Below are positions 1 to 25,085 of a DNA stretch of 32,785 bases, one piece after another (position 1 is the first letter of the stretch; every line of letters starts with the position of its first letter). The notes beneath the pieces were generated by a model. It was not told the DNA's origin. It ran no database searches and saw nothing but the letters and a program-made list of their open reading frames with translations. Source of the stretch: Caulobacter sp. (GTDB lineage Bacteria; Pseudomonadota; Alphaproteobacteria; Caulobacterales; Caulobacteraceae); the NCBI GenBank assembly GCA_026225565.1, contig JAMFTA010000199.1:32001-64785 (forward strand), given 5' to 3'. The translations under genes and the position numbers were made by a program.

Positions 1-883
1 CATGGGCGGCGTCGAACAGCGACCCGTAGGAGCCGTCGTTCAGATAGAGGGCGTCGCCCTTCTTCAGCTCGACCTTGCAGAGGATGGAGGTGGATTCCGC
101 CACCAGCGCCCGGCCGGGCTCGCACCAGAGCTCGGTGGTTTCATGCACCTTCATCTCGTCAAAGCCCCGGTGGATGGACTCCATGTAGTCTTCCATCGCC
201 GGGGGAACCATGCCGGGATAGACCGACGGGAAGCCGCCGCCCACATCCACCACGTCGGCGAACACGCCGGCGCGGACCAGGGCGCGGGAGGCTTGGGCCA
301 TCGCGGCTTGGTAGGCCGTGGGCCTCATGCACTGGCTGCCCACGTGGAAGCAGACGCCCATCAGCTCTTCGGTGGAACGACGAGCGGCCAACAGTAGGGC
401 CGGCGCATCCTGGGTGGAGACCCCGAACTTGCCGCCCAGGGTATAGGCTGCGCCCTCGGTCTGCACCGCGAGACGAACCATCAGGTTGAGATCCTTGGCG
501 CCGCCCGTGGCTTCAAGGATCTTCGTAAGCTCTTCGTGGGTGTCGAGCGAGAAGGTGCGCACGCCGTAGTCGAAATAGGCCTCGGTGATCGCCGCCCGGC
601 TTTTTACCGGATGCATGAACGCCATAGACGCGCCCGGGGCTGTGCGGGCCACCAGCTGGACTTCGGGTATGGAGGCCACGTCGAACTTGCGAACGCCGTT
701 CTCCCATAGGGTCTTGATGACCCAATCGGAAGGATTGGCTTTGACGGCGTAAAGTACGTCGCCCTTGAAGTTATCCTGGAACCAGCGTCCTGCTACGGCC
801 GTGCAGTCCGGACGCACGAGTGCGACTGGACGTTCGGGAGACCGCTCGCGGACCAGGTCCAGGGAGTCATGGTACGTGTGCAA
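1..883 (-). CDS. Ornithine decarboxylase, type III PLP fold (partial, C-terminus off the left edge)
   Basis: PLP-dependent decarboxylase that would convert ornithine to putrescine, the entry step of polyamine synthesis, in the cytosol. Reading leftward from a TTG at 883, the frame stays open for 294 codons to the window edge. It shows the PLP-lysine motif YAVKANP (Lys about residue 48), the barrel motif HVGSQ and the glycine-rich phosphate-binding motif DVGGGFP. These are hallmarks of the alanine racemase-like (fold III) ornithine/diaminopimelate decarboxylases; the N-terminus (HTYHDSLDLVRERSPERPV) fits the short alphaproteobacterial ornithine enzymes. The TTG is chosen because an AGGGGG ribosome-binding site lies about 10 nt upstream, the family alignment begins right there and no in-frame ATG/GTG is close. 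The substrate is inferred from family resemblance; lysine or a dual specificity is possible. The gene is divergent from the pilus locus. Confidence 0.88.
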   Translation of the reverse strand, partial: MHTYHDSLDLVRERSPERPVALVRPDCTAVAGRWFQDNFKGDVLYAVKANPSDWVIKTLWENGVRKFDVASIPEVQLVARTAPGASMAFMHPVKSRAAITEAYFDYGVRTFSLDTHEELTKILEATGGAKDLNLMVRLAVQTEGAAYTLGGKFGVSTQDAPALLLAARRSTEELMGVCFHVGSQCMRPTAYQAAMAQASRALVRAGVFADVVDVGGGFPSVYPGMVPPAMEDYMESIHRGFDEMKVHETTELWCEPGRALVAESTSILCKVELKKGDALYLNDGSYGSLFDAAH

Positions 884-1046
884 TTCACGTAACCCCCTGT
901 TGAAGTTAAACCCAATCCGGCGTTAGCAGCGCCTGCGAGAAGCTCTCGCCTACGAACTCGGGTCCGCCGGAGAGGTGCAAATAGGGAATGCGTCCCCCGA
1001 TGTAAAGCGGTTTTGGCGGGCTTTGGCCGCCACTGACCAATTGGTC
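884..1046 (-). promoter_or_regulatory. Structured 5' leader of ornithine decarboxylase; candidate speF RNA motif with a 44-codon short ORF
   Basis: About 160 nt upstream of the decarboxylase start hold several paired elements. These are a perfect 6-bp hairpin (935-940 with 944-949), a GGCG/CGCC pair (919-922 with 930-933), CCG/CGG pairings around 998-1011 and a 12-bp perfect palindrome GACCAATTGGTC at 1035-1046. A short ORF on the minus strand runs from TTG 1040 to TAA 906 (44 codons). It includes LYIGGRIPYLHLSGGPEFVG and ends 22 nt before the decarboxylase start. Established knowledge: a conserved RNA called the speF motif occurs upstream of ornithine decarboxylase genes in alphaproteobacteria, and E. 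coli speF is controlled by a leader peptide. That this leader is that motif, or that the ORF is translated, is inference; the TTG has no clear ribosome-binding site. Confidence 0.5.
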
Positions 1047-1287: not shown

Positions 1288-1452
1288 ATGTCGAAGTTTG
1301 TCTCGCGTTTCATGAATGATGAATCCGGCGCCACGGCCATCGAATATGGCCTGATCGCCGCCCTGATCGCGGTCGTGATCATCACCGCCGTGACCGCCCT
1401 GGGCACCACGCTCAGCGCCAAGTTCAACAGCATCTCCACGTCCATCCACTAA
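1288..1452 (+). CDS. pilA: Flp/PilA-family type IVb pilin 1
   Basis: Major structural subunit of the Flp pilus, 54 residues. It has a short leader (MSKFVSRFMNDESG) followed by the Flp processing motif ATAIEYGLIAAL; cleavage after Gly14 would leave Glu and Tyr at mature positions 5 and 6, as in the family. A hydrophobic helix fills residues 20-40. The start at 1288 is chosen because AGGAGA lies at 1275-1280 with ideal spacing; an in-frame start at 1141 would add 49 residues no pilin has. It is the first gene of the locus, followed by a strong hairpin and a second pilin. CpaA would be its peptidase. Confidence 0.93.
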   Translation: MSKFVSRFMNDESGATAIEYGLIAALIAVVIITAVTALGTTLSAKFNSISTSIH

Positions 1453-1484
1453 ACTTGAGGCCTCAGCTTCAAGGTTAAGCGATG

Positions 1485-1511
1485 GGGCCGCGACGTCATG
1501 CGTCGCGGCCC
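1485..1511 (+). terminator. Strong hairpin between the two pilin genes
   Basis: Perfect 11-bp GC-rich stem (GGGCCGCGACG at 1485-1495, CGTCGCGGCCC at 1501-1511) with a 5-nt loop, followed by only TTTG. It lies between pilin 1 and pilin 2. The weak T-tract suggests a partial terminator or an mRNA 3'-stabilising hairpin that lets pilin 1 be made in excess; this role is inferred. Confidence 0.6.
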
Positions 1512-1541
1512 TTTGCATTCTGGCGGCAAGGGAGCCAACCG

Positions 1542-1706
1542 ATGCGGAGCTTCATAAAGCGATTTGCCCGCGATCGACGGGGCGCGACGGCGATCGAATA
1601 CGCCTTGATCGTCAGCGTGTTGTCGATTGTCATCGCCGCGGCGCTGACGACGGTTGGCGTCAAGCTCTACACATTGATCGGAACCGCCGCGAACGCGATC
1701 CACTAG
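1542..1706 (+). CDS. Flp/PilA-family type IVb pilin 2
   Basis: Second small Flp pilin, 54 residues, parallel in design to the first: basic leader MRSFIKRFARDRRG, then ATAIEYALIVSVLSIVI with the Glu/Tyr pair at mature positions 5 and 6 after cleavage at Gly14, and the same C-terminal ending (AIH versus SIH). AAGGGA sits 8 nt before the ATG. The core is more beta-branched than in pilin 1, and the leader has Arg-Arg where pilin 1 has acidic residues, so the two are diverged paralogs rather than a recent copy. It could be a minor subunit, an alternative major pilin or a pseudopilin. It lies just downstream of the hairpin at 1485-1511 and so may be expressed at a lower level. Confidence 0.9.
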   Translation: MRSFIKRFARDRRGATAIEYALIVSVLSIVIAAALTTVGVKLYTLIGTAANAIH

Positions 1707-1791
1707 ATCGGGCGTCGCAACGCTTCATTTAAAGCTCTGTGCCAAGCTGACGCCATCAGCGGTCTGGGACCGGGATCGTGCGGATGGGTTC

Positions 1792-2298
1792 ATGACGGCG
1801 CTTCCTCTTACCCTGACGGCCTTTTTCCCGGCGCTGGTGATTTTCGCGGCCATCCGGGACGTCACCACCTTCACCATTCCCAACTGGATCTCCCTGACGG
1901 CGATCCTCGTCTTCTTTCCCGTGGCCTTTCTGACGCATCTGCCGCTTGTCGCGCTGGAGAGCGCGGCGCTGGTCGGCGTCATCGCCCTGGTGCTGGGCGT
2001 CGGTATGTTCGCCCTGGGCTGGATCGGAGGGGGCGACGCCAAGCTGTTCGCCGCCAGCGCGCTCTGGCTGGGATGGCCGGCGGTGCTTCCCTTCCTCTTG
2101 TGGACATCCTTAGCGGGCGGCGGCCTGGCGGTGATGCTCCTGTGGAGCCGCAAGCTGGCCATTCACTATCCCAACTTGGGGCCCGCCTGGTTCGAACGCC
2201 TGATGCTGCCTGGGGGGGACGTGCCTTACGGTCTGGCGATCGCGGTCGGCGCATTGATCGCTTTTCCGTCGAGCGGTCTCTTCCATACCCCTCTGTGA
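1792..2298 (+). CDS. cpaA: Prepilin peptidase CpaA/TadV (type IV aspartic peptidase)
   Basis: Inner-membrane aspartyl protease that removes the leader from Flp pilins. It has 168 residues, almost all in hydrophobic segments, the size of the short peptidase-only TadV/CpaA group, without the methylation domain of PilD. The two catalytic aspartates are visible: Asp23 in IRDVTTFTIPN and Asp82 in the family motif GGGDAKL. A further conserved PGGDVPYG lies near residue 145. The gene follows pilin 2 by 85 nt. It precedes a 132-nt spacer with a long inverted repeat, so it may be in the pilin transcript or partly separate from cpaB onward. Confidence 0.92.
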   Translation: MTALPLTLTAFFPALVIFAAIRDVTTFTIPNWISLTAILVFFPVAFLTHLPLVALESAALVGVIALVLGVGMFALGWIGGGDAKLFAASALWLGWPAVLPFLLWTSLAGGGLAVMLLWSRKLAIHYPNLGPAWFERLMLPGGDVPYGLAIAVGALIAFPSSGLFHTPL

Positions 2299-2302
2299 CA
2301 CC

Positions 2303-2396
2303 GTCGCGGCGCGCCTCTTTAACCAAAAGCGCCCGCGCTTAGGCCGACGTTAACCCGCGAGAGACAATGATTTAGGCCTGTAAGAGGCGCGGCGAC
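2303..2396 (+). promoter_or_regulatory. Long inverted repeat in the cpaA-cpaB spacer
   Basis: Arms GTCGC-(GG)-CGCGCCTCTT (2303-2319) and AAGAGGCGCG-GCGAC (2382-2396) pair over 15 bp with a 2-nt bulge and enclose 62 nt. A nested AGGCC/GGCCT pair (2341-2345, 2375-2379) lies inside the loop. The loop also carries two TTAAC words (2319-2323, 2350-2354). No T-tract follows, so it does not look like a plain terminator. It ends about 20 nt before the cpaB ribosome-binding site, consistent with an mRNA structure or regulator site. The function is unknown. Confidence 0.45.
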
Positions 2397-2430
2397 CCGA
2401 CCGGCCGCTGCGCTGTTGGAGGCATGATCA

Positions 2431-3354
2431 ATGAGCCCGGTGCGAATGGGCGTTCTCGTCAGTGTGGCGTTCGTGGCGGCGGTCGGGCTTGCGCTCATCG
2501 CCCGCAGCGTCGCGATCGGTCATGCGCGCCCCGCGCCCGTGGCTGTGATGGCCGCCCCGCAAGCGCCCATGGTGCGCGTGCTGGTGGCCAAGCGCGATCT
2601 GTCGCCGGGCGATCGGCTGACCCCAGGGGATTTCAACTGGCAGGCCTGGCCGGCCGAAGGCCTGAATCCTGCCTTCATCACTGATGGCGCGGCGGCGGCC
2701 GGTCCGTCGGTAAAGGCGCCGGCGACCGTCAAGATAGAAACCGCCGCTTTAAATGCGGCCTCCGACAAGGCCCACGATCTGATGGCCTCCGGCGCCGGCG
2801 GCGCGGCCGGCAAGATGGTTGACGCCATCGTTCGCGATCCCATCCTGGCCGGCGAGCCGATCGTCGAAGGCAAGGTGGTTCACGCCGGCGCGGCCGGCAT
2901 TCTGGCCGTCTCCCTCGATCCCGGAATGCGGGCCATGTCCGTTCCGGTCTCGGCTGAAAGCGCGGCCGGCGGTTTCATCCTGCCGGGCGACCACGTGGAC
3001 GTGGTGCAGAGCCGACAGATGGACACGTCGGGCGGCGCCAAGAAGTTCGCCTCTGGCGCGGTGCTGCGCAACGTCAAGATCCTGGCCATCGATCAGAACA
3101 CCACCCGCACCCAAAAGAGCGCGGCGGTGGTCGGCGCCACCGCGACCCTTGAGGTCTCCCCGGCCGAGGCGGAGCTCTTGGCCCTGTCCAAATCCCAGGG
3201 CGAACTCACCTTGATCCTTCGCTCCTATGCGGACACCGCCGGCAATTCGAGCGCGGGCGGCGGGCCGAGACTGGCCGAACAGGTGAACGTCGCCCCAGCG
3301 GTGGTCAAGGTGTTCCGAAACGGCGCACCCGCGGATGTGGCGGTGACCCGATGA
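2431..3354 (+). CDS. cpaB: Flp pilus assembly protein CpaB/RcpC
   Basis: Periplasmic, membrane-anchored pilus assembly factor of 307 residues. An N-terminal signal anchor (about residues 6-25, VLVSVAFVAAVGLALIA) is followed by an SAF-type domain: MVRVLVAKRDLSPGDRLTPG near residues 45-65, DPILAGEPIVEGKVV near 135-150, then RAMSVPVSAESAAGGFILPG and DHVDVV near 170-190. This is the usual CpaB arrangement. An Ala/Gly-rich stretch around residues 85-130 interrupts the SAF region. GGAGG at 2418-2422 supports ATG 2431 over the out-of-frame ATG at 2424. The TGA overlaps the ATG of cpaC (ATGA), implying coupled translation. CpaB is thought to help secretin assembly or to bind peptidoglycan. Confidence 0.92.
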   Translation: MSPVRMGVLVSVAFVAAVGLALIARSVAIGHARPAPVAVMAAPQAPMVRVLVAKRDLSPGDRLTPGDFNWQAWPAEGLNPAFITDGAAAAGPSVKAPATVKIETAALNAASDKAHDLMASGAGGAAGKMVDAIVRDPILAGEPIVEGKVVHAGAAGILAVSLDPGMRAMSVPVSAESAAGGFILPGDHVDVVQSRQMDTSGGAKKFASGAVLRNVKILAIDQNTTRTQKSAAVVGATATLEVSPAEAELLALSKSQGELTLILRSYADTAGNSSAGGGPRLAEQVNVAPAVVKVFRNGAPADVAVTR

Positions 3355-4973
3355 GCGGGCATCGCCTGATCGCCCTCTTCGCCTGCGCTGTCCTGCTTCC
3401 CGGCGCGGCTCTGGCCCAGCCTGGCCTGATCGGCGCGCCTACCCATTCCTATGGCGGCCAGACCTATGGTGAGACGCCGGGCGCCGGCTATGGCCGCCCG
3501 AGCGGCGAGACCATGCGGGTCGACCTTTCCAGCGACAGAGGCGAGACGCGCACCCTGGCCCTGCCCAAGGGCAAGTCGGCGGTGATCGACCTGCCCACCG
3601 ACGCGCGCGACGTGGTGGTCTCCGATCCCAAGGTGGCGGACGTGGTGCTCTCCACCCCCCGGCGCATCTATGTGCTGGGCGTGGGCGGCGGCCAGACCGA
3701 CGCCGCCTTCTTCGACACCTCGGGGCGCCAATTGCTGCGCCTGAACATCCGGGTCGATCAGGACATCAGCGCCCTTGGCGATACGCTCAATCGCATCCTG
3801 CCGGGATCGACGATCCGGGCCGAGGCGGTCAATTCGAGCATTGTGCTGTCGGGCGAAGTCGCCAACCTGGCGACGGCGGACAAGGCCGTGCGCCTAGCCC
3901 AGGGCTTCACCGGCAAGCCCGAGCAGGTGGTCAACATGCTGAGCGTGGCGGAATCCGAGCAGGTGATGCTCAAGGTCCGCATCGTCGAGGTGAACCGCAC
4001 CATCATCAAGCAGCTGGGCTTCAACCTCGGCGCCGTGATGGGCCAGCTTGGAAAGCCGCAATATAGCTTTGGAACGACGCCCACATTCGGCGTCAACGGC
4101 TCCTTGCTTGGCGGAATCACAGGCGGATATTCAGTAAATACGACATCCCAAGCCGTCGTGGCCGATGCTACCGGCACCGGCGGCTGCACTAGCGGGGCTA
4201 GCGGCAACACGATTATCGATGCCGGGTTGAAAGCGGCGTGCGTGGCGACCGGAAGGATCGGCAGCAACGGGATCAATCAAGCGACCAGCATGGTCGAGGC
4301 CTTCGAGCGCGTGGGTCTGGTTCGCACTATGGCCGAACCCAATCTCACCGCTGTCTCCGGCGAAAGCGCCAAGTTCCTGGTCGGCGGCGAATTTCCCGTG
4401 CCCGTGGGCGAGGACAGCACCGGCCGCATAACGGTGGAATTCAAGCAGTACGGGGTCGGTCTCGGCTTTACGCCCGTGGTGTTGTCTAAGGGCCGCATCT
4501 CGTTGAAGCTCTCCACCGAGGTGTCCGAGATCACCAATACGGGCTCTTTCTCGGTATCTACGGCGGCGACGTCCACCACAGCCGCTTCGTCCTTGGTGGT
4601 GCCTGGCCTCAATGTCCGTCGGGCCGAGACGGTTGTAGAGTTGCCATCGGGCCAATCGATGATGATCGCCGGCTTGTTGCAGTCGGTCAGCAAGCAGACC
4701 CTGGATTCCCTGCCCGGCCTGATGCAGGTGCCGGTGTTGGGCGCCCTCTTCCGCTCGCGCGACTTCCAGCAGGGCGAGACCGAGCTGGTGGTCATCGTCA
4801 CCCCCTATCTGGTCAAGCCGGTGATGCCGGGTCAGCTGCAGACCCCCGCCGACGGCCTTGAGATCGCCAACGATCTGGAGACCAACCTGCTTGGAAAATT
4901 GAACAAGAGCGTCGGCAAGGCCGCGCCCGAGGGCAAGACCTATCAAGGGCCATTCGGCTATGTGGTGGAGTAA
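3351..4973 (+). CDS. cpaC: Flp pilus outer-membrane secretin CpaC/RcpA
   Basis: Secretin that forms the outer-membrane pore for the pilus, 540 residues. A Sec signal peptide ends near residue 22 (LLPGAALAQ). The N-terminal secretin domain (about 55-130) is followed by a BON-like domain (about 130-195, RLNIRVDQDISALGDTLN then SGEVANLATADKAVRLAQ). The secretin core runs from about 205 to 490, with VRIVEVNRTIIKQLGFN, AEPNLTAVSGESAKFLVGGE and the closing GLLQSVSKQTLDSLPGL...LFRSRDFQ. Residues about 246-306 are an extra Gly/Thr/Ser-rich loop, encoded by lower-GC DNA, with two cysteines (279 and 297). It starts within the cpaB stop codon and is followed closely by its pilotin-like partner CpaD. Confidence 0.95.
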   Translation: MSGHRLIALFACAVLLPGAALAQPGLIGAPTHSYGGQTYGETPGAGYGRPSGETMRVDLSSDRGETRTLALPKGKSAVIDLPTDARDVVVSDPKVADVVLSTPRRIYVLGVGGGQTDAAFFDTSGRQLLRLNIRVDQDISALGDTLNRILPGSTIRAEAVNSSIVLSGEVANLATADKAVRLAQGFTGKPEQVVNMLSVAESEQVMLKVRIVEVNRTIIKQLGFNLGAVMGQLGKPQYSFGTTPTFGVNGSLLGGITGGYSVNTTSQAVVADATGTGGCTSGASGNTIIDAGLKAACVATGRIGSNGINQATSMVEAFERVGLVRTMAEPNLTAVSGESAKFLVGGEFPVPVGEDSTGRITVEFKQYGVGLGFTPVVLSKGRISLKLSTEVSEITNTGSFSVSTAATSTTAASSLVVPGLNVRRAETVVELPSGQSMMIAGLLQSVSKQTLDSLPGLMQVPVLGALFRSRDFQQGETELVVIVTPYLVKPVMPGQLQTPADGLEIANDLETNLLGKLNKSVGKAAPEGKTYQGPFGYVVE

Positions 4974-4977
4974 GCCG

Positions 4978-5676
4978 GTGATCAGCCAATCCTCTTCCCT
5001 GACCCTCCGTCGGCTGCTGTGCGGTCTGGCTCTGGCCGGCCTCGCGGCCTGCGCCTCGCCGCCATCCAAAACGCCGTCCGGCCACGCCATGCTGCCGACC
5101 GAACACTATGCCGTCAAGGTGGAGGAAGTTCCCGACCAACTCGCCCTCGCCGTCCATGCCGATGGCGTCTCCTCTCGCCAGCAGACGGCGCTGGCGGATT
5201 TCGTCGCCCGCTGGCGCGAGGCCGGGGCGGGCGAAGTGGCGGTGAAGACGCCGGCCGACACCGACGCCGCCGAGCAGGCCAAATCCATGACCTATGTCGT
5301 GCAATCCCAGCTGGAAGCCCTGGGCGTTCCGTCGGAGCGGATCCGACTGGCCTCCTATGTGGCGGGAGTTCCCAAGGGGCCTGTGCTGGCGAGTTTCAAG
5401 CGCCTCACCGCCCACGGCGACGATTGCAATGGCGACTGGGGCAATCTCACCTCCACCATGAGCAATGAGCCCTATAAGCATTTCGGCTGCGCCCTGACGG
5501 CCAATTTCGCCGCGCAACTGGCCGATCCCCGCGACCTCGTTGCGCCCGTGCCTCTGGCCGCCGGCGACACCACCCGCCGCGAGGTGGTGCTGGGAAAATA
5601 CCGCGAGGGTAAGATCACCGCATCCGAGAAGGACGATCAAGCCTCCGGCGCCGCCTCCGTCGCGGTGAAGCAATGA
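4978..5676 (+). CDS. cpaD: Flp pilus assembly lipoprotein CpaD
   Basis: Outer-membrane-associated lipoprotein that partners the secretin. From GTG 4978 the product is 232 residues, with a basic n-region, a hydrophobic stretch and a lipobox LAAC (Cys25), then a CpaD domain that includes GDDCNGDWGNLTSTMSNEPY and a paired FGCALTANFAAQLADPRDL. The GTG is preferred because GGTGGAG lies 7 nt upstream and the lipoprotein signal has normal length. An in-frame ATG at 4960 inside the end of cpaC would add six residues (MWWSKP) and cannot be excluded. The stop overlaps the cpaE start (ATGA). Confidence 0.88.
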   Translation: MISQSSSLTLRRLLCGLALAGLAACASPPSKTPSGHAMLPTEHYAVKVEEVPDQLALAVHADGVSSRQQTALADFVARWREAGAGEVAVKTPADTDAAEQAKSMTYVVQSQLEALGVPSERIRLASYVAGVPKGPVLASFKRLTAHGDDCNGDWGNLTSTMSNEPYKHFGCALTANFAAQLADPRDLVAPVPLAAGDTTRREVVLGKYREGKITASEKDDQASGAASVAVKQ

Positions 5677-7094
5677 CCAGCCAGTCAGGCTTCCAGGACG
5701 ACTTCGACGGTTTCGACGCCGACGACGATTTCACCGGTCCCTCGGTGTTCGACGCGCCGCCCAAGGCGACGCCGGCGGCGAGGCTCACGCCTGTCGATCT
5801 GCACGACGACGGCTTTGACGCGCCGGCGCTCCTACCGGCCCAACCGCCGGTTTCCAATCCTGTCGGCGCGCTCCTGGCCGGGGTGGAAAGCGCCCTCGGC
5901 GAGGCGTCGGTGCCGCGCATCACCATCCACATCTTTTGCCAGCGGCCGGAAACCGCCGCCGTGGCCGAGCAGGCGGCCGCCGACCGGCGTCTGTCGCGCG
6001 CCACTACCGAAGTGCATCCCGGCGGCCTGGTCGAAGCTTTGGCCCACTATCGCAACCAACCCACCCCGCCCTTGATCATCGTCGAGAGCGTCGAGCCGGC
6101 GCAACTCCTGCTATCGGGCCTGGATCGCCTGGCCGAGGTCTGCGATCCCGGCACCAAGGTGGTGGTGATCGGCTCGCACAACGACATCGGCCTCTACCGC
6201 GAGCTGATGCGTCGGGGGGTCAGCGAATATCTGGTGCCGCCGCTGCAGACCCTGCAGCTGATCCGCGCCGTCACCACCCTCTATACCGATCCCGCCATCC
6301 CCTTCGTCGGCCGCACCCTGGCCTTCGTGGGGGCAAAGGGGGGCTCCGGCTCCTCGACCCTCGCCCACAATATCGCCTATCAGCTTTCCGAAGCCATGCA
6401 GGCCAATACGGTCATCGCCGACTTCGACCTGGCCTTCGGCACGGCGGGGCTGGATTTCAACCAGGACCCGATCCAGGGCATGGCCGACGCCTTGAACAAA
6501 CCCGATCGCCTGGATCCCACCCTCTTGGATCGGATGACCGCCCGCTGCACCGAGCGCCTCTCCCTGTTCGCCGCACCGGCGTCGCTCGACGATGACTACG
6601 TCATCTCCGACGAGGCGTTCGAGGAGGTGCAGAATAAGATCAGAAGCACCGCCCCCTATGTGGTGCTGGATCTCCCCCACCTGTGGTCGGCCTGGATGCG
6701 CCGAGCCATCCTGTCGTCCGACGACGTGGTGATCACCGCGACCCCCGATCTGGCGTCCCTGCGCAACGCCAAGAACCTCTTCGACCTGATCAAGAAGGCC
6801 CGACCCAATGACGCGCCGCCGCATCTGATTCTCAATCAGGTGGGCGCGCCGGGCAGGCCTGAAATTCCGGTCAAGGAATTCTCCCGGGCCTTGGGCATCG
6901 AGCCCGCCCTGGTGCTGCCGTTCGATCCTAAGCTGTTCGGCCAGGCCGCCAACAACGGCCAGATGGTGTTCGAGGTGAACCCTAAAGCCAAGGCGGCCGA
7001 AGGGCTCGCCCAGTTCACCCAGGTGCTGGCGCGCCGCGAAGCTATCGTCGTCAAGCCGCACTCTTTGATCGACCGCCTCTTGGGTCGGACCTGA
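5673..7094 (+). CDS. cpaE: Pilus assembly/localisation protein CpaE/TadZ (MinD/ParA-like ATPase family)
   Basis: Cytoplasmic P-loop protein that positions the pilus machine; in Caulobacter CpaE marks the pole. It has 473 residues in three parts: an acidic, disordered N-terminus (residues 1-80), a receiver-like domain (about 80-210, with IIVESVEPAQLLLSGLDRLAE and a VVIGSHND strand), and a MinD-like domain (about 215-450). The nucleotide loop reads GAKGGSGSSTLAHN near residue 220: the signature lysine of the deviant Walker A box is present at its start, but the second, catalytic lysine is Ser. DFDLAFGTAGLDFNQ and VVLDLPHLWS match the switch regions. The altered loop is a recurring trait in the CpaE/TadZ group, so it is not read as a defect. 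It begins inside the cpaD stop codon. Confidence 0.93.
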   Translation: MTSQSGFQDDFDGFDADDDFTGPSVFDAPPKATPAARLTPVDLHDDGFDAPALLPAQPPVSNPVGALLAGVESALGEASVPRITIHIFCQRPETAAVAEQAAADRRLSRATTEVHPGGLVEALAHYRNQPTPPLIIVESVEPAQLLLSGLDRLAEVCDPGTKVVVIGSHNDIGLYRELMRRGVSEYLVPPLQTLQLIRAVTTLYTDPAIPFVGRTLAFVGAKGGSGSSTLAHNIAYQLSEAMQANTVIADFDLAFGTAGLDFNQDPIQGMADALNKPDRLDPTLLDRMTARCTERLSLFAAPASLDDDYVISDEAFEEVQNKIRSTAPYVVLDLPHLWSAWMRRAILSSDDVVITATPDLASLRNAKNLFDLIKKARPNDAPPHLILNQVGAPGRPEIPVKEFSRALGIEPALVLPFDPKLFGQAANNGQMVFEVNPKAKAAEGLAQFTQVLARREAIVVKPHSLIDRLLGRT

Positions 7095-7101
7095 GCCCGG
7101 C

Positions 7102-8634
7102 ATGTTCGGTAAACGCAGCTTCGGCACGGCCGACCTGGACGCCCCCGCCCCGCCGCCCCCGGCGGCGGGCGCGGCGATCGCTACGCGCCCCCAGCGCCAG
7201 GATCCCAAGACCGCGCCCAAGGCCGAAACAGCTGAGGGATTCGCCGGTCTTTCCCACGACTCCGACGGCCGTAAACTGTCGCGCAAACCGGCCGACGTGG
7301 CCAAGCGCGCCGAGGACGTCGCCCCCAAGCGCGACGCCATCGCCGAGATCGTGCGCGAGCAGAGCGACTATTACCACGCCACCAAGACCACCATCTACAC
7401 GGCCCTTCTGAACACCATCGACCTGTCGCAACTAGCCCAGCTGGACATCAAGCAGGCCGGCGAGGAGATCCGCGACATCGTCGCCGAACTGGTGGCGATC
7501 AAGAACGTCTCCATGTCCGCCACCGAGCAGGACCACCTGGTTCAGGACATTATCAACGACGTCTTGGGCTATGGGCCGCTGGAGCCCCTCCTGGCCCGCG
7601 ACGACATCGCCGACATCATGGTCAACGGCGCCCACCGGGTGTTCATCGAAGTGGGCGGCAAGGTGCAGCTGACCAACGTCCGCTTCCGCGACAATCAGCA
7701 GCTGATGAACATCTGCCAGCGGATCGTCAGCCAGGTGGGACGGCGGGTGGATGAAAGCTCCCCCATCTGCGACGCCCGTCTGCCCGATGGCTCGCGGGTC
7801 AACGTCATCGCTCCGCCGCTCTCTTTGGATGGCCCGACCCTGACCATCCGGAAGTTCAAAAAAGACAAGCTGACCATGGGCAATCTGGTGCAATGGGGCT
7901 CCATCAGTCCCGAGGGCGCCAAGGTCTTGGGCATCATCGGCGCCTCGCGCTGCAACGTCTTGATCTCGGGCGGCACGGGCTCGGGCAAGACCACGCTCCT
8001 CAACTGCCTGACCGCCTACATCGACCCTGCCGAACGGGTGGTGACCTGCGAGGACGCCGCCGAACTGCAGCTGCAGCAGCCCCATGTGGTGCGCCTGGAA
8101 ACCCGGCCGCCCAATTTGGAGGGCTCGGGCCAGATCACCATGCGGGACCTGGTCAAGAACTGCCTGCGGATGCGGCCCGAGCGGATCATCGTCGGCGAAG
8201 TGCGGGGCCCCGAGGCCTTCGACCTCCTGCAAGCCATGAACACCGGCCACGACGGCTCCATGGGCACGCTGCACGCCAACTCCCCCCGCGAAGCCGTGTC
8301 GCGGATGGAATCCATGATCACCATGGGCGGCTATGGCCTGCCGTCCAAGACCATCCGCGAGATGATCTCCGGCTCCATCGACGTAATCGTGCAGGCGGCG
8401 CGTCTGCGCGACGGCTCGCGCCGCATCACCCACATCACCGAGGTCTTGGGCCTGGAAGGCGATGTAGTCATCACCCAGGATCTATTCATCTATGACATCA
8501 CCGGCGAGGACGCCCAGGGCGGGGTGGTCGGCCGCCATCGCTCCACCGGCATCGCCCGCCCCCGCTTTTGGGACCGCGCCCGCTATTACGGCCTGGAGCG
8601 CGAGTTGGCGGACGCTTTGGACGCGTCGGAGTAG
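7102..8634 (+). CDS. cpaF: Flp pilus secretion ATPase CpaF/TadA
   Basis: Hexameric cytoplasmic ATPase of the VirB11/TadA group that drives pilus extension and, in Tad systems, retraction. It has 510 residues: a Pro/Ala-rich variable N-terminus (1-80), a helical N-terminal domain with the family block [20 protein letters not shown] (about 150-170), and the ATPase core. The core shows Walker [10 protein letters not shown] (about 290-298), the Asp box near [14 protein letters not shown], Walker [14 protein letters not shown] (about 362) and the histidine box [11 protein letters not shown] (about 388). It is full length. It starts 7 nt after cpaE and ends 3 nt before tadB. Confidence 0.96.
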
Positions 8635-8637
8635 GCG

Positions 8638-9618
8638 ATGGACGCCCTCACCCTGATCCTGATCGCCTTTATGGGCTTTGTGGTGGTGGCGGGCCTCGGC
8701 TTCGTCTTCGCCGGCGGCGAAAACGGGGCGGCCCCAATCAAACGGCTGCAGTCGGTCACCGGCGCCGTCAAAAGCGACCAGCCGCGCACCCGCAACGCGG
8801 TCGAGGTCGCGGGCGTTCGCCGCAAGCAGATCGTGCAGACCCTGAGGGCGGCGGAAAAGCAGGAGCGCAAGGCCAAGCTCACCACCGAATCCCGCCTGCG
8901 TCAGGCCGGCTTGAAGGTTTCCGTCCGCACCTTTTGGATCGTTTGCGCGGTCTTGGGCGTCGTCGCCATGCTGCTCGCCGTGGTGTTCAGGGCGCCGTTG
9001 ATCGCGGGCGTGGGCATAGGGTTCGCGGCGGGCTTCGGCCTGCCCCGCTGGGTGCTGGGTTTCCTGATCAAGCGCCGCACTAAGAAATTCACCGAGGAGT
9101 TCCCCAACGCCACCGATGTCATCGTGCGGGGGATCAAGTCCGGTCTTCCCGTCAACGATTGCCTGAAGATTATCGGGCGGGAAAGCTCAGAGCCCCTGGG
9201 CAGCGAGTTTCGTCAGTTGGTGGAATCGGCGGCCATGGGCCTGACCCTCGAACAGGCGCTGGAAAAGATGTACGAGCGGATGCCCACCTCAGAAGTGCGC
9301 TTCTTCGCCATCGTGCTGTCGATTCAAGCCAAGACCGGCGGCAATCTGGCCGAGGCCCTGGGCAACCTGTCGGCCGTCCTGCGGGCGCGAAAATTGATGG
9401 TGGAGAAGATCAAGGCCATGTCCGGCGAAGCGGTGGCCTCGGCCTTCATCATCGGCTCCCTGCCGCCGGGCGTTATGGGGCTGATCTTCGTCTCGAGCCC
9501 CAAATACATGATGCCGTTGTTCACCGATCCTCGCGGTCACCTGATGCTGATCGGTGCGGCGATGTGGATGGCAACCGGCGTCTTCGTGATGAAACGCATG
9601 ATCAACTTCAAGTTCTGA
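8638..9618 (+). CDS. tadB: Inner-membrane platform protein TadB (CpaG)
   Basis: First of two polytopic membrane proteins on which the ATPase acts; 326 residues. An N-terminal helix (5-27), a charged linker, two helices near 100-140 and a T2SSF/GspF domain at about 150-290 are seen. The domain has EEFPNATDVIVRGIKSGLPV, ESAAMGLTLEQALEKMYERMP and KTGGNLAEALGNLSAVLR, with C-terminal helices after it. It is adjacent to cpaF (3-nt gap) and to its partner tadC (7-nt gap). In Caulobacter nomenclature it would be cpaG. Confidence 0.93.
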   Translation: MDALTLILIAFMGFVVVAGLGFVFAGGENGAAPIKRLQSVTGAVKSDQPRTRNAVEVAGVRRKQIVQTLRAAEKQERKAKLTTESRLRQAGLKVSVRTFWIVCAVLGVVAMLLAVVFRAPLIAGVGIGFAAGFGLPRWVLGFLIKRRTKKFTEEFPNATDVIVRGIKSGLPVNDCLKIIGRESSEPLGSEFRQLVESAAMGLTLEQALEKMYERMPTSEVRFFAIVLSIQAKTGGNLAEALGNLSAVLRARKLMVEKIKAMSGEAVASAFIIGSLPPGVMGLIFVSSPKYMMPLFTDPRGHLMLIGAAMWMATGVFVMKRMINFKF

Positions 9619-9625
9619 GGCGATC

Positions 9626-10633
9626 ATGGATATTATCGACACCCTCACCGATCCAGCCAATGTCGTCATGGGCGTCGTGGGCGTCTTGTCGTTCGCCACC
9701 ATCTACACCCTCGCCGCGCCGATGTTCAGCGCCGACAAGCTCGGGGCTCGGATGAAGTCGGTGGCCAACCGTCGCGAGGAACTGCGCCGGCGCTCCCGCC
9801 AACAGATCGTCGGCGCCCCATCGACCCTGCGCCACACCGATGGGGGGATGATCAAGAAGATCGTCGACCGGCTGGATTTGAAACGACTGCTGGAAGATCC
9901 CAAGGTGGCCGACAAGCTGGCCCAGGCCGGCTATCGCGGCTCTCGCCCCATGACCATCTTCTATTTCTGTCGGCTGGTGATGCCCTTCGTCCTGGCCATC
10001 GTCACGGCGATCTACATCTACGGGATCAACGGCTTTAACATGCCGCCGATGATGAAGTTGACCACCGTCTTCGGCGGCTTGGCGGCGGGCTTCTACGGCC
10101 CCAACATCTTCCTGCAGAACCGGGCGTCTAAGCGCCGCGAATCCATCGTCGGCGCCTTTCCCGACGCCCTGGATCTGCTCCTGATCTGCGTCGAGGCCGG
10201 CATGTCCATCGAGGCGGCCATCCAGAAGGTGGCCGGGGAGATCGGCACGCGATCCATCGAACTGGCCGAAGAATTGACCCTGCTCACCGCCGAGCTGTCT
10301 TACCTGCCTGAGCGCCGACAGGCTTATGACGGCCTGTCGCGCCGCACCAATCATCCGGGGATCAAGGCGGTGGCCACGGCGATGATCCAGGCCGAACGCT
10401 ATGGCACCCCGCTCGGCCAGGCCCTGCGCATCATGGCCAAGGAGAACCGCGACATGCGGATCGCCTCGGCGGAAAAGAAGGCGGCGCAACTGCCAGCCAA
10501 GCTGACCGTGCCGATGATCCTCTTCTTCCTGCCAGTGTTGTTCGTGGTGATCCTGGGGCCGGCGGGGATGAATATCTCCGACACTTTCAACCACAGGGGC
10601 GCGCAGAACCAGGACCACTCGGTCCGACACTAG
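9626..10633 (+). CDS. tadC: Inner-membrane platform protein TadC (CpaH)
   Basis: Second T2SSF-domain membrane protein of the Tad platform, 335 residues. Helices lie near 12-32, 110-135 and 140-158. The GspF-like domain (about 175-300) has FPDALDLLLICVEAGMSIEAA, ELTLLTAELSYLPERRQAYD, GTPLGQALRIMAKENRDMR and EKKAAQLPAKLTVPMILFFLP, which match TadC closely, and a final helix follows. It is the last pilus gene here: tadD, tadE, tadF and tadG do not follow. No T-rich hairpin is seen in the 71-nt gap to the next gene, so read-through is possible. Confidence 0.93.
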   Translation: MDIIDTLTDPANVVMGVVGVLSFATIYTLAAPMFSADKLGARMKSVANRREELRRRSRQQIVGAPSTLRHTDGGMIKKIVDRLDLKRLLEDPKVADKLAQAGYRGSRPMTIFYFCRLVMPFVLAIVTAIYIYGINGFNMPPMMKLTTVFGGLAAGFYGPNIFLQNRASKRRESIVGAFPDALDLLLICVEAGMSIEAAIQKVAGEIGTRSIELAEELTLLTAELSYLPERRQAYDGLSRRTNHPGIKAVATAMIQAERYGTPLGQALRIMAKENRDMRIASAEKKAAQLPAKLTVPMILFFLPVLFVVILGPAGMNISDTFNHRGAQNQDHSVRH

Positions 10634-11871: not shown

Positions 11872-12647
11872 TCCGCATCGCCGGCGTCCGCAAGACCTTC
11901 GACGGCGGCGCCGTGGCGGTGGACGACGTGACCCTGGCGATCGCCAAGGGAGAGTTTCGCGTTGTCGTCGGCGCCTCCGGCTCGGGCAAGACCACCCTTC
12001 TGAAAATCATCAACCGCTTGATCGAGCCTGACGCGGGGTCGGTGACGGTGGACGGGCGACCCGTCGCCGAAGGGCCCGCGCCGCAGCTCCGCCGCCGCAT
12101 CGGCTACGCCTTTCAAGGGGTGGGGCTGTTTCCCCACCTGACGGTCGCGGAGAACATCGGCGTCACCCCCAAACTTCTGGGCTGGCAGCCGGCGGCGGTC
12201 GCGGCGCGGGTGGATGAGCTGTTGGACCTGGTCGCCCTGCCGCGCGCTTTTGCGACGCGCCGGCCGGACGCCCTGTCGGGTGGACAGCGCCAGAGGGTCG
12301 GCCTCGCCCGGGCGCTGGCCGCCAAGCCTGAGGTTGTGCTGCTGGACGAGCCGTTCGGGGCGCTGGACGCCGTCACCCGCGACACCTTGGGGCGGGACTA
12401 TCGCCAGATCCATGAGACCCTGGGCCTCACCACCGTGATGATCACCCACGACATGATGGAGGCGTTGCTGTTGGCGGACCGGATCGCCGTAATGCGGGGC
12501 GGGCGGATCCTGGCCGACAGCGCGCCAGGAGATTTCCTCGCCGGCCACCCCGACCCCTATGTGCGCGAGCTGGTCGACACCCCGCGCCGTCAGGCGGAAC
12601 GGGTGGCGGCCTTGGCGGCCCAAAGCAGAGGCATGGGCGCGGCATGA
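11868..12647 (+). CDS. ABC transporter ATP-binding protein, quaternary-amine/OpuC type
   Basis: Cytoplasmic ATPase subunit of 259 residues. Walker A GASGSGKTT (35-43), a Q-loop in GYAFQGVGLFPHLTVAENI, the ABC signature LSGGQRQRVGLARAL (about 135), Walker B VVLLDEPFGALDAVTR (about 155) and the switch histidine in VMITHDMMEALLLADRI are all present. The ENIGVTPKLLGW stretch and the EALLLADRIAVMRGG end resemble the ProV/OpuCA/OsmV group of betaine, choline and carnitine importers. It lacks the C-terminal CBS domains that many OpuCA proteins have. It overlaps its neighbours by 4 nt on both sides. Confidence 0.9.
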   Translation: MIRIAGVRKTFDGGAVAVDDVTLAIAKGEFRVVVGASGSGKTTLLKIINRLIEPDAGSVTVDGRPVAEGPAPQLRRRIGYAFQGVGLFPHLTVAENIGVTPKLLGWQPAAVAARVDELLDLVALPRAFATRRPDALSGGQRQRVGLARALAAKPEVVLLDEPFGALDAVTRDTLGRDYRQIHETLGLTTVMITHDMMEALLLADRIAVMRGGRILADSAPGDFLAGHPDPYVRELVDTPRRQAERVAALAAQSRGMGAA

Positions 12648-14200
12648 GCGAGCAGATCGCCGCCGCACTCCACCTCCTGCCCACCTACCTCGGTTGGCAC
12701 GTGGTGCTCAGCGGCGCTGCCCTCGGGCTCGGTCTCTCGATCAGCGCGCCCTTGGCGGTGCTTTCGGCCCGCAGCGCCGCAGTGCGCTGGCCGGTGCTGG
12801 CGGCGGCGGGCCTGATCCAGACCGTTCCCTCCCTCGCCCTCCTGGCCCTCTTCTATCCCCTATTGTTGGCCCTCTCGGCCCTGACCAAGAGCGTGGTCGG
12901 GTATGGATTTCCGGCCCTCGGCTTTCTGCCCTCGCTCCTGGCGCTTAGCCTCTATTCCATGTTGCCCATGCTGAGAAACGGGGTGACGAGCCTCACCAGC
13001 GTCGATCCGGCGGTGGTGGAGGCGGCCAAGGGCGTCGGCATGACCGACCGCCAGCGCCTGTGGCAGGTGGAGGCGCCCCTGGCCGCGCCGGTGGCCATGG
13101 CCGGGGTCCGCACGGCGGCGGTCTGGGTGATCGGCACGGCGACCCTGGCCACCTCGGTCGGGCAGACTTCCCTCGGGGACTACATCTTCTCCGGTCTGCA
13201 GACGGAAAACTGGGTGCTGGTGCTGTTCGGCTGCGCCGCCTCCGCCGGGCTGGCCTTCGTGGTCGATCAGTTGCTTGGCTTGATCGAGACCGGCCTGGCC
13301 CGTCGCCGCAAGGCGCCCATGCTGATCGGTCTTGGCCTGTTGGCGGGGGGATTCGTGCTGGCCTGCGCGCCGATCCTGATCGCCGCGGCCAAGCCGCCTG
13401 GCTATGTGGTCGGGGCGAAGAACTTTTCCGAGCAATATATCCTCGCCGACCTGATGGGCGACCGGCTAGAGGCTGCTGGCGCGCGGGTGACCCACAAGAG
13501 CGATCTCGGCTCGGTCATCGCCTTTCGCGCCCTCGCCGCCAATGAGATCGACGCCTATGTGGACTATTCGGGCACCCTTTGGACCGCGGTGCTGGGCCGC
13601 AAGGACACCCCGCCCCGCGCCCAATTGCTGGCGCAGATGACCCGCGAGCTGAAGGCGAGATACGGGGTGGAGGTGTTGGGACCGCTCGGTTTCGAAAACG
13701 CCTACGCCCTGGCCATGCGCCGCAGCGAAGCGGAGAGGCTGGGGATCGTCTCCATCGCCGATCTTTCCGTCCACGCGCCGGAGCTGACCCTGGGGTCGGA
13801 CCTGGAATTCCTTTCGCGTATCGAATGGCGCGGTCTGCAAGGGGCCTATGGGTTGCGGTTCCGGGCCGAGCGCCAGTTCCAGCCGACCTTCATGTATAAG
13901 GCGGTGACGGGCGGCGAGGCGGATGTGATCTCCGCCTTCTCGTCCGACGGGCGGATCGCGGCGGACGATCTGGTGGTGCTGACCGATCCCAAGGGGGCGA
14001 TTCCGCCTTACGACGCGGTGGTGCTGATCGCGCCCAAGCGCGCCCAGGATCGGCGGTTCCGCGGGGCTCTGCAGCCATTGATCGGGCGTATTTCGGTGCA
14101 GGCGATGCGCCAGGCCAATCTGACGGTGGATCGCGACACGGAGAAGCGCTCTCCGGCCGAAGCGGCCCGCGCCCTAGCCCAGGCCATCGGCGCCCGCTAA
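12644..14200 (+). CDS. Fused ABC permease and substrate-binding protein, OpuC/OsmF/EgtUBC-like
   Basis: One 518-residue chain joins two subunits of a betaine-type importer. Residues 1-225 form a permease with the family coupling region TSVDPAVVEAAKGVGMTDRQRLWQ-type block and at least five helices; another helix (about 227-247) leads to a periplasmic binding domain (about 250-518). The domain opens with YVVGAKNFSEQYILADLMGD and has AYVDYSGTLWTAVLG, SDLEFLSRIEWRGLQGAYGL and DVISAFSSDGRIAADDLVVL, matching the type II binding proteins for glycine betaine, choline, carnitine and ergothioneine. Such fusions are known (for example BilEB- or EgtUBC-like proteins). The ligand cannot be told from sequence by eye. 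It pairs with the ATPase at 11868. Confidence 0.9.
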   Translation: MSEQIAAALHLLPTYLGWHVVLSGAALGLGLSISAPLAVLSARSAAVRWPVLAAAGLIQTVPSLALLALFYPLLLALSALTKSVVGYGFPALGFLPSLLALSLYSMLPMLRNGVTSLTSVDPAVVEAAKGVGMTDRQRLWQVEAPLAAPVAMAGVRTAAVWVIGTATLATSVGQTSLGDYIFSGLQTENWVLVLFGCAASAGLAFVVDQLLGLIETGLARRRKAPMLIGLGLLAGGFVLACAPILIAAAKPPGYVVGAKNFSEQYILADLMGDRLEAAGARVTHKSDLGSVIAFRALAANEIDAYVDYSGTLWTAVLGRKDTPPRAQLLAQMTRELKARYGVEVLGPLGFENAYALAMRRSEAERLGIVSIADLSVHAPELTLGSDLEFLSRIEWRGLQGAYGLRFRAERQFQPTFMYKAVTGGEADVISAFSSDGRIAADDLVVLTDPKGAIPPYDAVVLIAPKRAQDRRFRGALQPLIGRISVQAMRQANLTVDRDTEKRSPAEAARALAQAIGAR

Positions 14201-18439: not shown

Positions 18440-18760
18440 GTGCACCCATTGGCCGACCTCGACACCGATATCGCCAGTTTCGTGGCTCCCGCTAAGCGGG
18501 CGACGCTAGCCGATGGTCGGCGCGGCTTTTCTGGCGTGATCGTCGATGTTCAGGCCAGCGACGCCGACGGCGGCCTGCCTGCCGCTGAGCTGGAGCGCCG
18601 CCTGTTGGAAATGGGTTTCGTTGAGGGCGCCCGGGTCGCGATCCTGCACGAAGGCTTTATCGGCCGCGATCCCATCTGCGTGCGCCTGGACGATATGCGC
18701 GTCGCCCTTCGCCGCCGTGACGCCCGAAGCGTTCTGGTGCGTCCCGACGTCGCGCGATGA
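18440..18760 (+). CDS. feoA: Ferrous iron transport protein FeoA
   Basis: Small cytoplasmic SH3-like protein of 106 residues that assists FeoB. The core reads LERRLLEMGFVEGARVAILHEGF and IGRDPICVRLDDMRVALRRRDARSV-type sequence, the standard FeoA fold. The N-terminal 40 residues are longer than in minimal FeoA. The start is assigned to GTG 18440 since the open frame upstream is unlike FeoA; TTG 18449 is an alternative, and the ribosome-binding site is weak for both. Its TGA overlaps the ATG of feoB. A Fur-like site lies just upstream. Confidence 0.85.
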   Translation: MHPLADLDTDIASFVAPAKRATLADGRRGFSGVIVDVQASDADGGLPAAELERRLLEMGFVEGARVAILHEGFIGRDPICVRLDDMRVALRRRDARSVLVRPDVAR

Positions 18761-24993: not shown

Positions 24994-25016
24994 CCGCGAT
25001 TTAACCCACATTGCGG
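24994..25016. other. Short hairpin upstream of the TonB-dependent receptor gene
   Basis: CCGCGAT (24994-25000) can pair with ATTGCGG (25010-25016) with one wobble and a 9-nt loop. It lies 5 nt after the terminator and 69 nt before the receptor start. It could be a regulator site in the receptor promoter or an mRNA leader hairpin. Confidence 0.25.
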
Positions 25017-25085
25017 CCTTGTAATTGGCGCCAGGCGGGGCGTTCGAGCACACCCTGCGCCTTGGACGGCGTTTGGGGGTTTGGC

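Follow-up and report, generated by a model that had tools for sequence, protein, structure and literature searches.

The conserved leader of an ornithine/lysine-type decarboxylase gene in Caulobacteraceae, probably a cis-acting translational element that reaches into the first codons

RNA-level control of alphaproteobacterial polyamine synthesis has been a standing question since speF was described without a ligand, and in the section of PMC3766115 used here speF is given as an RNA of unknown ligand. The locus studied here, at the beginning of a 32,785-nt stretch of Caulobacter sp. DNA (the window, by which we mean this whole stretch), raises the same question for a decarboxylase gene: is the DNA in front of it a regulatory leader, and does it act as a translated peptide, as the known speF RNA or in some other way? 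A preliminary description of this DNA had proposed a candidate speF RNA with a translatable 44-codon ORF. Pfam and solved-structure matches define the decarboxylase as an ornithine/lysine-type fold-III, COG0019-type enzyme, its NCBIfam matches lying below cut-off only, and the gene after it matches 1,9-bis(guanidino)-5-aza-nonane synthase, which resembles deoxyhypusine synthase, with a score above the cut-off.

The 204-nt leader DNA matched 133 of 149 genomes of the same family, its own included (E<=0.01), with the weakest matches being short stretches. This family (f1) is the Caulobacteraceae, and a pattern scan of named genomes found matches in Caulobacter, Phenylobacterium, Brevundimonas and Asticcacaulis. 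Among the leaders examined by name is that of Caulobacter strain OR37 (L133). Among the matches listed, a decarboxylase gene followed within 200 nt on the same strand in 114 of 120 loci; five of the remaining six had no room for it and the sixth, L128, from a bin labelled Deltaproteobacteria, had no decarboxylase in 2345 nt and appears to be a chance match, which leaves an ornithine/lysine-type decarboxylase downstream in 114 of the 115 listed named loci with room. Where there was room for it, the synthase gene lay within 2.6 kb (63 of 67 loci, again among the matches listed). The window's own genome holds one convincing copy of the leader, the second-best match having an E value of 3.

The elements of the leader stand in the order CCGGCGGACCC, a variable insert, GCTGCTAACGCCGG, nYTGGGTT, the Shine-Dalgarno region (SD) and TTG (Table 1). 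Placed side by side in one orientation, 70 of 70 leaders carried CCGGCGGACCC with 11/11 letters, and the same 70 shared a near-invariant GCTAACGCCGG-nYT-GGGTT. Just upstream of the invariant block the family leaders have a conserved CTTTACA-n~16-CCTATTT, which, by its resemblance to the consensus, we take to be a sigma-70-type promoter; the transcript would start near position 973, a few bases before the first predicted stem, P1. Only leaders carrying CTTT(G)ACA were retained for the set of 154 distinct leaders that is counted below. L136 has a second CCGGCGGACCC upstream of its promoter, and as its apparent insert of 110 nt spans that copy, it was left out of the insert set.

Table 1. Positions of the features of the decarboxylase leader and its surroundings in the window.
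Feature	Position	Strand	Remarks
Ornithine/lysine-type decarboxylase, N-terminal part (417 aa in full)	1..883	-	extends beyond the window
Coding-region lock TCCCTGGACCT, codons 7-10	855..865	-	partner of SD and GGGTT; synonymous homozygosity
Start hairpin ACGUG-AAUUGCA-CACGU, TTG start codon (881-883) in loop	874..890	-	pair counts in 99 TTG and 30 GTG/ATG leaders
Shine-Dalgarno region CAGGGG	894..899	-	6/6 pairs with coding partner in 120/129 leaders
44-codon ORF of the preliminary description	906..1040	-	rejected as gene, frame not kept in relatives
GGGTT, pairing candidate for coding GACCT (helix A) or leader GACCC	909..913	-	helix A complete in 125/129 leaders
P1 3' strand CGCCGG	917..922	-	invariant in alignment A1 (54/54)
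Conserved GCTGCTAA adjoining P1	923..930	-	alignment A1: GCTAA invariant, preceding letters >=90%
Hairpin GCGAGA-GCT-TCTCGC, variable insert of leader	935..949	-	hairpin of the preliminary description
GACCC, candidate pseudoknot strand	960..964	-	all 5 pairs with GGGUU possible in 104/115 leaders
P1 5' strand CCGGCG	965..970	-	within CCGGCGGACCC, 70/70 leaders
Promoter -10 hexamer CTATTT, 16-nt spacer	979..984	-	majority letters CCCTATTT over 154 leaders
Promoter -35 hexamer TTTACA	1001..1006	-	CTTT(G)ACA 37-40 nt before CCGGCGG, 154 distinct leaders
12-bp palindrome GACCAATTGGTC	1035..1046	.	chance level

The ORF is open exactly as the preliminary description had it, on the minus strand from 1040 to 906, and its product is LVSGGQSPPKPLYIGGRIPYLHLSGGPEFVGESFSQALLTPDWV, ending in a stop. 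The window contains 223 ORFs of at least 44 aa in its six frames as well as seven perfect 12-bp palindromes, where our arithmetic from equal base frequencies expects about eight; because both are thus at chance level in a GC-rich window, the ORF and the palindrome are weak as signals. The palindrome does exist where it had been described, but its value as a signal is lost with this frequency and with its absence from the loci of relatives: GACCAATTGGTC occurred in four of 335 loci, all four being the window's own place, and the palindrome was rejected as an operator. The hairpin upstream of the decarboxylase is likewise present, but it does not fold significantly (z -0.4 for the window's own insert), and folding of the 179-nt leader was not better than that of shuffles (z -0.86, with 38 of 200 shuffles as good).

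Among relatives the reading frame is not maintained. The lengths between the two invariant blocks of the 154 distinct leaders spread over the three classes modulo 3 as 72, 42 and 40, so that the frame of the ORF is kept at the leader end in 42, about the third to be expected without constraint, and only 29 leaders are both open and in this frame; inside the ORF lie both short indels (1-2 nt) and the inserts of 4 to 85 nt. The ORF also begins upstream of the conserved promoter and runs through it, the 'LYIGG..IPYLHL' part of its product, LYIGGRIPYLHL, coinciding with the promoter stretch, and 53 of the 154 leaders have no ATG, GTG or TTG between the approximate predicted start site and GGGTT. 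Related leaders that break the frame were what the preliminary description had named as speaking against its own proposal, and because the frame is lost in this way we reject the ORF as a leader peptide. The alignment of related leaders that it had recommended did uncover strong conservation, as nucleotide sequence (promoter and 5' UTR) and not as peptide, and its broader idea of a regulatory leader holds: the conserved leader is there, it is probably regulatory, and the gene behind it is of the ornithine/lysine type. The SpeFL leader peptide of E. coli speF controls ornithine decarboxylase from the leader through a translated peptide; the present case is like SpeFL in the probable control of an ornithine decarboxylase from its leader and unlike it in that no frame is conserved.

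Conservation reaches beyond the start codon. Full pairing between the SD and a coding CCCCUG is possible in 120 of 129 leaders (G-U allowed, best place within 21 nt); when the UTR is mononucleotide-shuffled, the figure is 2.9 per 129. Most relatives have CCC (Pro) where TCC (Ser) stands in the window, and pairing with the SD is still possible there. The consecutive codons CCC, CTG, GAC, CTG and GTC showed a synonymous homozygosity of 0.96-1.00 versus 0.35-0.60 expected by codon usage in 93 decarboxylase sequences, those of 128 anchored sequences that were long enough, L040 and L223 having been left out because they have no codon anchor. When 56 well-conserved codons were compared, five others were also high (positions 6, 12, 84, 87 and 94) and the rest dropped sharply. 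Helix A, formed by coding GACCU and leader GGGUU, was complete in 125 of 129 leaders and in none of the 129 when slid to any of six other registers, with the helices named on the same, related sequences that were used for counting; its variation consists of ten leaders with G-U turned into A-U and six with U-G turned into C-G.

In predicted folds the SD was unpaired with a probability of 0.052 in native sequences versus 0.165 after synonymous recoding and lower in 117 of 129, with the native MFE falling below that of the recoded sequences at p<=0.05 in only 15% of the 129. The start codon was more exposed than in the recodings (0.619 vs 0.483). Since the SD is predicted to be closed and the start codon exposed, the lock would act on the SD and not on the start codon. 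Start codons, which were assigned by rule, were TTG in 99, GTG in 28 and ATG in two leaders, and 128 of the 129 start at one and the same codon, seven before a conserved Leu; the start hairpin varies in sequence, with TACGTG/CACGTA in most TTG leaders and other helices in GTG leaders. Judged by pairing and codon choice, the first codons of the decarboxylase form part of the conserved element.

The P1 pairs never vary within the family, and for this reason the pairing of P1 rests on invariance and not on covariation. Among 91 distinct inserts, from which one artefact (L136) was removed, the gap between the invariant blocks ranges from 4 to 85 nt. Five of eight long inserts fold at z -2.2 or lower, among them L063 and L067, which are near relatives; the window's own insert, L003 (z 0.5) and L065 (z -1.0) do not fold significantly. 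One genus, g14, is probably Asticcacaulis, with L064 and L068 resembling L155, a named Asticcacaulis locus. In eight g14 leaders the 33 pairs of one named structure were kept in 99.2% of cells, and double changes affected two pairs, one belonging to the insert stem and the other, changed from A-U to U-A, to the start hairpin. The number of such pairs was not unusual (155 of 500 shuffles as high), that of double-changed cells was (2 of 500 shuffles as high), and slid registers showed none; the double changes stem from two sister sequences and hence represent few events.

Of 115 leaders, 104 could form all pairs of a pseudoknot between GACCC and GGGUU. One of these pairs is lost in the ten leaders that have AGGUU, and the varying pairs otherwise show one-sided changes only. 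The unconstrained MFE structure of the window's leader lacks P1, at -56.7 kcal/mol versus -52.1 with P1 forced. As a simple on/off switch through competition for GGGUU the pseudoknot finds no support in folding: when GGGUU is occupied, as it would be by the pseudoknot, the SD stays closed (0.052 in both states), with a rise of more than 0.1 in only 2 of 129 leaders. The leader has two features of riboswitches, a conserved cis leader 5' of a metabolic gene and an expression platform predicted to hide the SD, and in the folding computation a coupling of aptamer and platform by GGGUU competition was not found. In Caulobacteraceae the upstream leader paired directly with the ribosome-binding site no better than shuffled leaders did (p 0.38-0.995, 13 evaluated of 15). 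SAM-II-like riboswitches are compact pseudoknots; our leader is like them in its short stem with a loop that could pair just 3' of the stem, near the SD, and unlike them in that its pseudoknot is only a candidate and that no Rfam family matches it.

No Rfam family reached its cut-off in the window, and permissive scans gave one row each, mcrA for positions 700-1300 and Rhodo-rpoB for the leaders of ten relatives, both far below cut-off. The speF model (RF00518, gathering score 37 bits), which the preliminary description had suggested as a check, matched neither the window nor the whole genome nor the ten leaders. The leader works like a translational regulatory leader, and its membership in speF fails on the covariance model. 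In the class, RF00518 matched six of 190 genomes at E<=0.001, four of them over the cut-off, with none of the 14 control genomes of the model being matched; our own model of the leader, R1, had no match at E<=1 in six speF loci.

According to the portion of Corbino et al. (2005; PMC1273637) available here, speF is an element in the 5' UTR of COG0019-type decarboxylase genes in Alphaproteobacteria, and its extended form is conserved from a putative start site and has a stem topped by a variable insertion. This outline recurs in our leader, with its position in the 5' UTR of the same type of gene, its conservation near the putative start and its predicted stem with a variable insertion. It differs from speF as described in that portion by having no covariance match, by being much shorter and by including coding sequence; the ~80-nt long bulged stem-loop of speF (PMC1273637, same portion) has no counterpart that we could see, and our searches recovered the present leader from no order other than that of the window's genome. 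The N-termini of speF-associated and present decarboxylases also differ as read. The spermidine riboswitch, in the part of Salvail et al. (2023; PMC10853860) considered here, is a SAM-I variant of Gram-positive hosts that acts by transcription termination; as a cis-acting RNA on polyamine genes it resembles our leader, which, unlike it, has no SAM-I match. In open-licence papers, searched by title and the start of the abstract, we found no description of this decarboxylase leader.

Searching the class with R1, with 13 candidates scored per genome so that distant copies may be missed, yielded five of 385 genomes, four from its own family and G432 (E 0.009), which lacks GGACCC and was taken as a chance match. 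In the order, 49 of 120 genomes matched at E<=0.1, 24 of them from other families, and 17 of 20 fetched other-family hits lay directly upstream of a decarboxylase, with L237, L239 and L241 lying elsewhere; outside the order, R1 matched none of 28 decarboxylase loci at E<=1. Diverged versions of the leader precede the decarboxylase in three more families of the order, f175, f174 and f2, while f176 is a further family of this order and f14 belongs to another one.

In f175 the stem is reduced to CCGGC-GGAGGNNACGAU-GCCGG and the loop is turned into an SD and an ATG. The resulting micro-ORF, GGAGG-n5-ATG-CCG-GAT-TGG, the only conserved one that we found, opens with M-P-D-W-V-N in 13 of 13 leaders (L222, L224-L232 and L234-L236), where the Val codon (2) and the Asn codon (1) have undergone synonymous changes. 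Its stop lies ahead of the decarboxylase start by 1 nt in eight leaders and by 16 nt in four, and beyond it in one. A candidate for a covarying position in the f175 loop, judged by eye, was dropped. The f174 leaders (L223, L233, L238, L240 and L272-L284) have two copies each of GGACCTG and CTAACGCC in tandem in 13 of 17 cases, L283 having neither string, and the doubled GGACCTG...CTAACGCC can be likened to tandem riboswitches. In f2, GGCGGACA...ACTAACGCC was present in nine of 12 fetched leaders, the three without it belonging to another genus group; in L314 the script found no motif.

A sister hairpin, GCCAAUC-CCAUGGGACCUCUCCGCAA-GAUUGGC, was found in eight of 15 fetched f176 leaders. After one f14 leader was added, five of its eight pairs were changed on both sides, mostly owing to the f14 sequence, and 0 of 500 shuffles reached this. 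The model of this hairpin matched 14 of 385 class genomes at E<=0.05, ten of them not beside a decarboxylase and four, from f14, just upstream of one, including the one that had supplied the training sequence. A second decarboxylase leader with a loop like CCAUGGGAC...CGCAA is thus seen in two orders (L286, L287 and L292-L297 of f176; L322, L323, L330 and L333 of f14). Pairing of the leader with the ribosome-binding site beat shuffles in f176-1, where the hairpin loop supplies the complementarity (8/8, p<=0.01), and reached p 0.015 in the one f14 leader, was split in f176-2 (p 0.175 and 0.000) and ranged from p 0.005 to 0.54 in f174, with two at 0.015 or lower (9 evaluated of 10); it was at chance in f175 (13 leaders, p 0.16-0.98), f2 (9, p 0.21-0.89), f176-3 (3, p 0.44-0.755) and f176-4 (2, p 0.105 and 0.14). 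The 3' strands CUAACGRCGGUCAGGGG of L291 and L299 (f176), compared alongside L033, resemble that of speF, GCAACGACGGUGAGGGC, and are a possible bridge to the extended speF element. Picked by eye, the 3' strands are alike in a chain from speF over f176-4 (L291, CUAACGACGGUCAGGGG) to Caulobacteraceae (L046, CUAACGCCGGUCUGGGU): L291 shares 13 and L299 12 of 17 letters with speF, and L046 shares 14/17 with both f176-4 leaders and 11/17 with speF.

Several other explanations of the leader have to be weighed. A 44-codon peptide sensing ornithine or polyamines by ribosome arrest, in the manner of SpeFL, is extremely improbable; its ORF is open in the window and f175 has its conserved M-P-D-W-V-N micro-ORF behind GGAGG, but the frame is kept in only 42 of 154 leaders, 53 of 154 offer no start codon between the approximate predicted start and GGGTT, and the ORF runs through the promoter. 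The inverted repeat CCGGCG/CGCCGG could also be a DNA operator in the initially transcribed region, as its near-fixed distance of 37-40 nt from the -35 box would allow; we favour RNA because the spacing of the half-sites varies by tens of nt, and with a constraint that extends into codons the operator is very unlikely. Identity of the leader with the speF RNA of Corbino et al., or with a diverged copy of the first domain that the extended element has outside the RF00518 hits, would agree with the same gene type downstream, with the similar outline in the consulted portion of PMC1273637 and with the chain of 3' strands picked by eye; we nevertheless hold it to be unlikely, with RF00518 matching nothing in genome, window or ten leaders, R1 nothing in six speF loci, and the decarboxylase N-termini differing as read.

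Two further readings accept the leader as an RNA and differ in what acts on it. A protein instead of a metabolite might bind the P1 element and repress or activate translation or mRNA decay, since short invariant sequences, with a single convincing copy in the window's own genome, fit a protein site as well as an aptamer; there is no candidate protein at hand, and we regard this as a doubtful though serious alternative. The leader might also be a fixed one whose lock merely sets a low translation rate, in line with an SD predicted to be closed in both computed states and with TTG/GTG starts. Against such an unregulated leader, which we consider rather improbable, stand P1 and GCUAA, located at a distance from the SD and more invariant than a weak start site requires, and the tandem copies in f174.

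We prefer to regard the leader as a structured 5' UTR that probably acts in cis on translation of the decarboxylase, most likely as an uncatalogued RNA that holds translation down and releases it on a signal. Such an RNA would begin with P1 (CCGGCG/CGCCGG), enclosing GGACCC, the insert of variable length and CUGCUAA, whereas the SD and the UUG/GUG start would sit in a second predicted fold built partly of the first codons of the decarboxylase, with CCCCUG paired to the SD and GACCU to the leader GGGUU. The SD fold would keep translation low by default, and the invariant P1 element, together with GGACCC, CUGCUAA and GGGUU, would be the likely sensor that alters it. As the signal we would guess at a polyamine-pathway metabolite, giving feedback on the decarboxylase and on the downstream deoxyhypusine-synthase-like gene; a P1-binding protein would be the other choice. 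A leader this short and near-invariant through most of a family with a tractable model organism represents a compact RNA for ligand tests, and the regulatory element would be partly made of the enzyme's own first codons.

A wider unification may be put forward tentatively, as a possibility that we hold to be doubtful. A single alphaproteobacterial RNA could have as its branches the leaders of the order, the f176 and f14 hairpins with CCAUGGGAC...CGCAA, and the domain that comes first in the extended speF element; it would form a stem where the mRNA begins, with a loop tending to GGAC...YAA. It might constitute a new class of metabolite-binding riboswitches for the polyamine pathway that closes the ribosome-binding site of the decarboxylase. 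In Caulobacteraceae the first codons of the enzyme would then belong to the switch, and in f174 the sensors would be in tandem.

As to the surroundings of the locus, a Tad/Flp pilus cluster lies divergent from the decarboxylase at positions 1288-10630 of the window and comprises a Flp/Fap pilin, a prepilin peptidase, RcpC/CpaB, a secretin, an AAA protein, T2SSE and two T2SSF proteins. Further along, a permease and OpuAC glycine-betaine-binding domain protein (12644-14197), FeoB (18757-20658) and a TonB-dependent receptor-like protein (25011-27212) are encoded.
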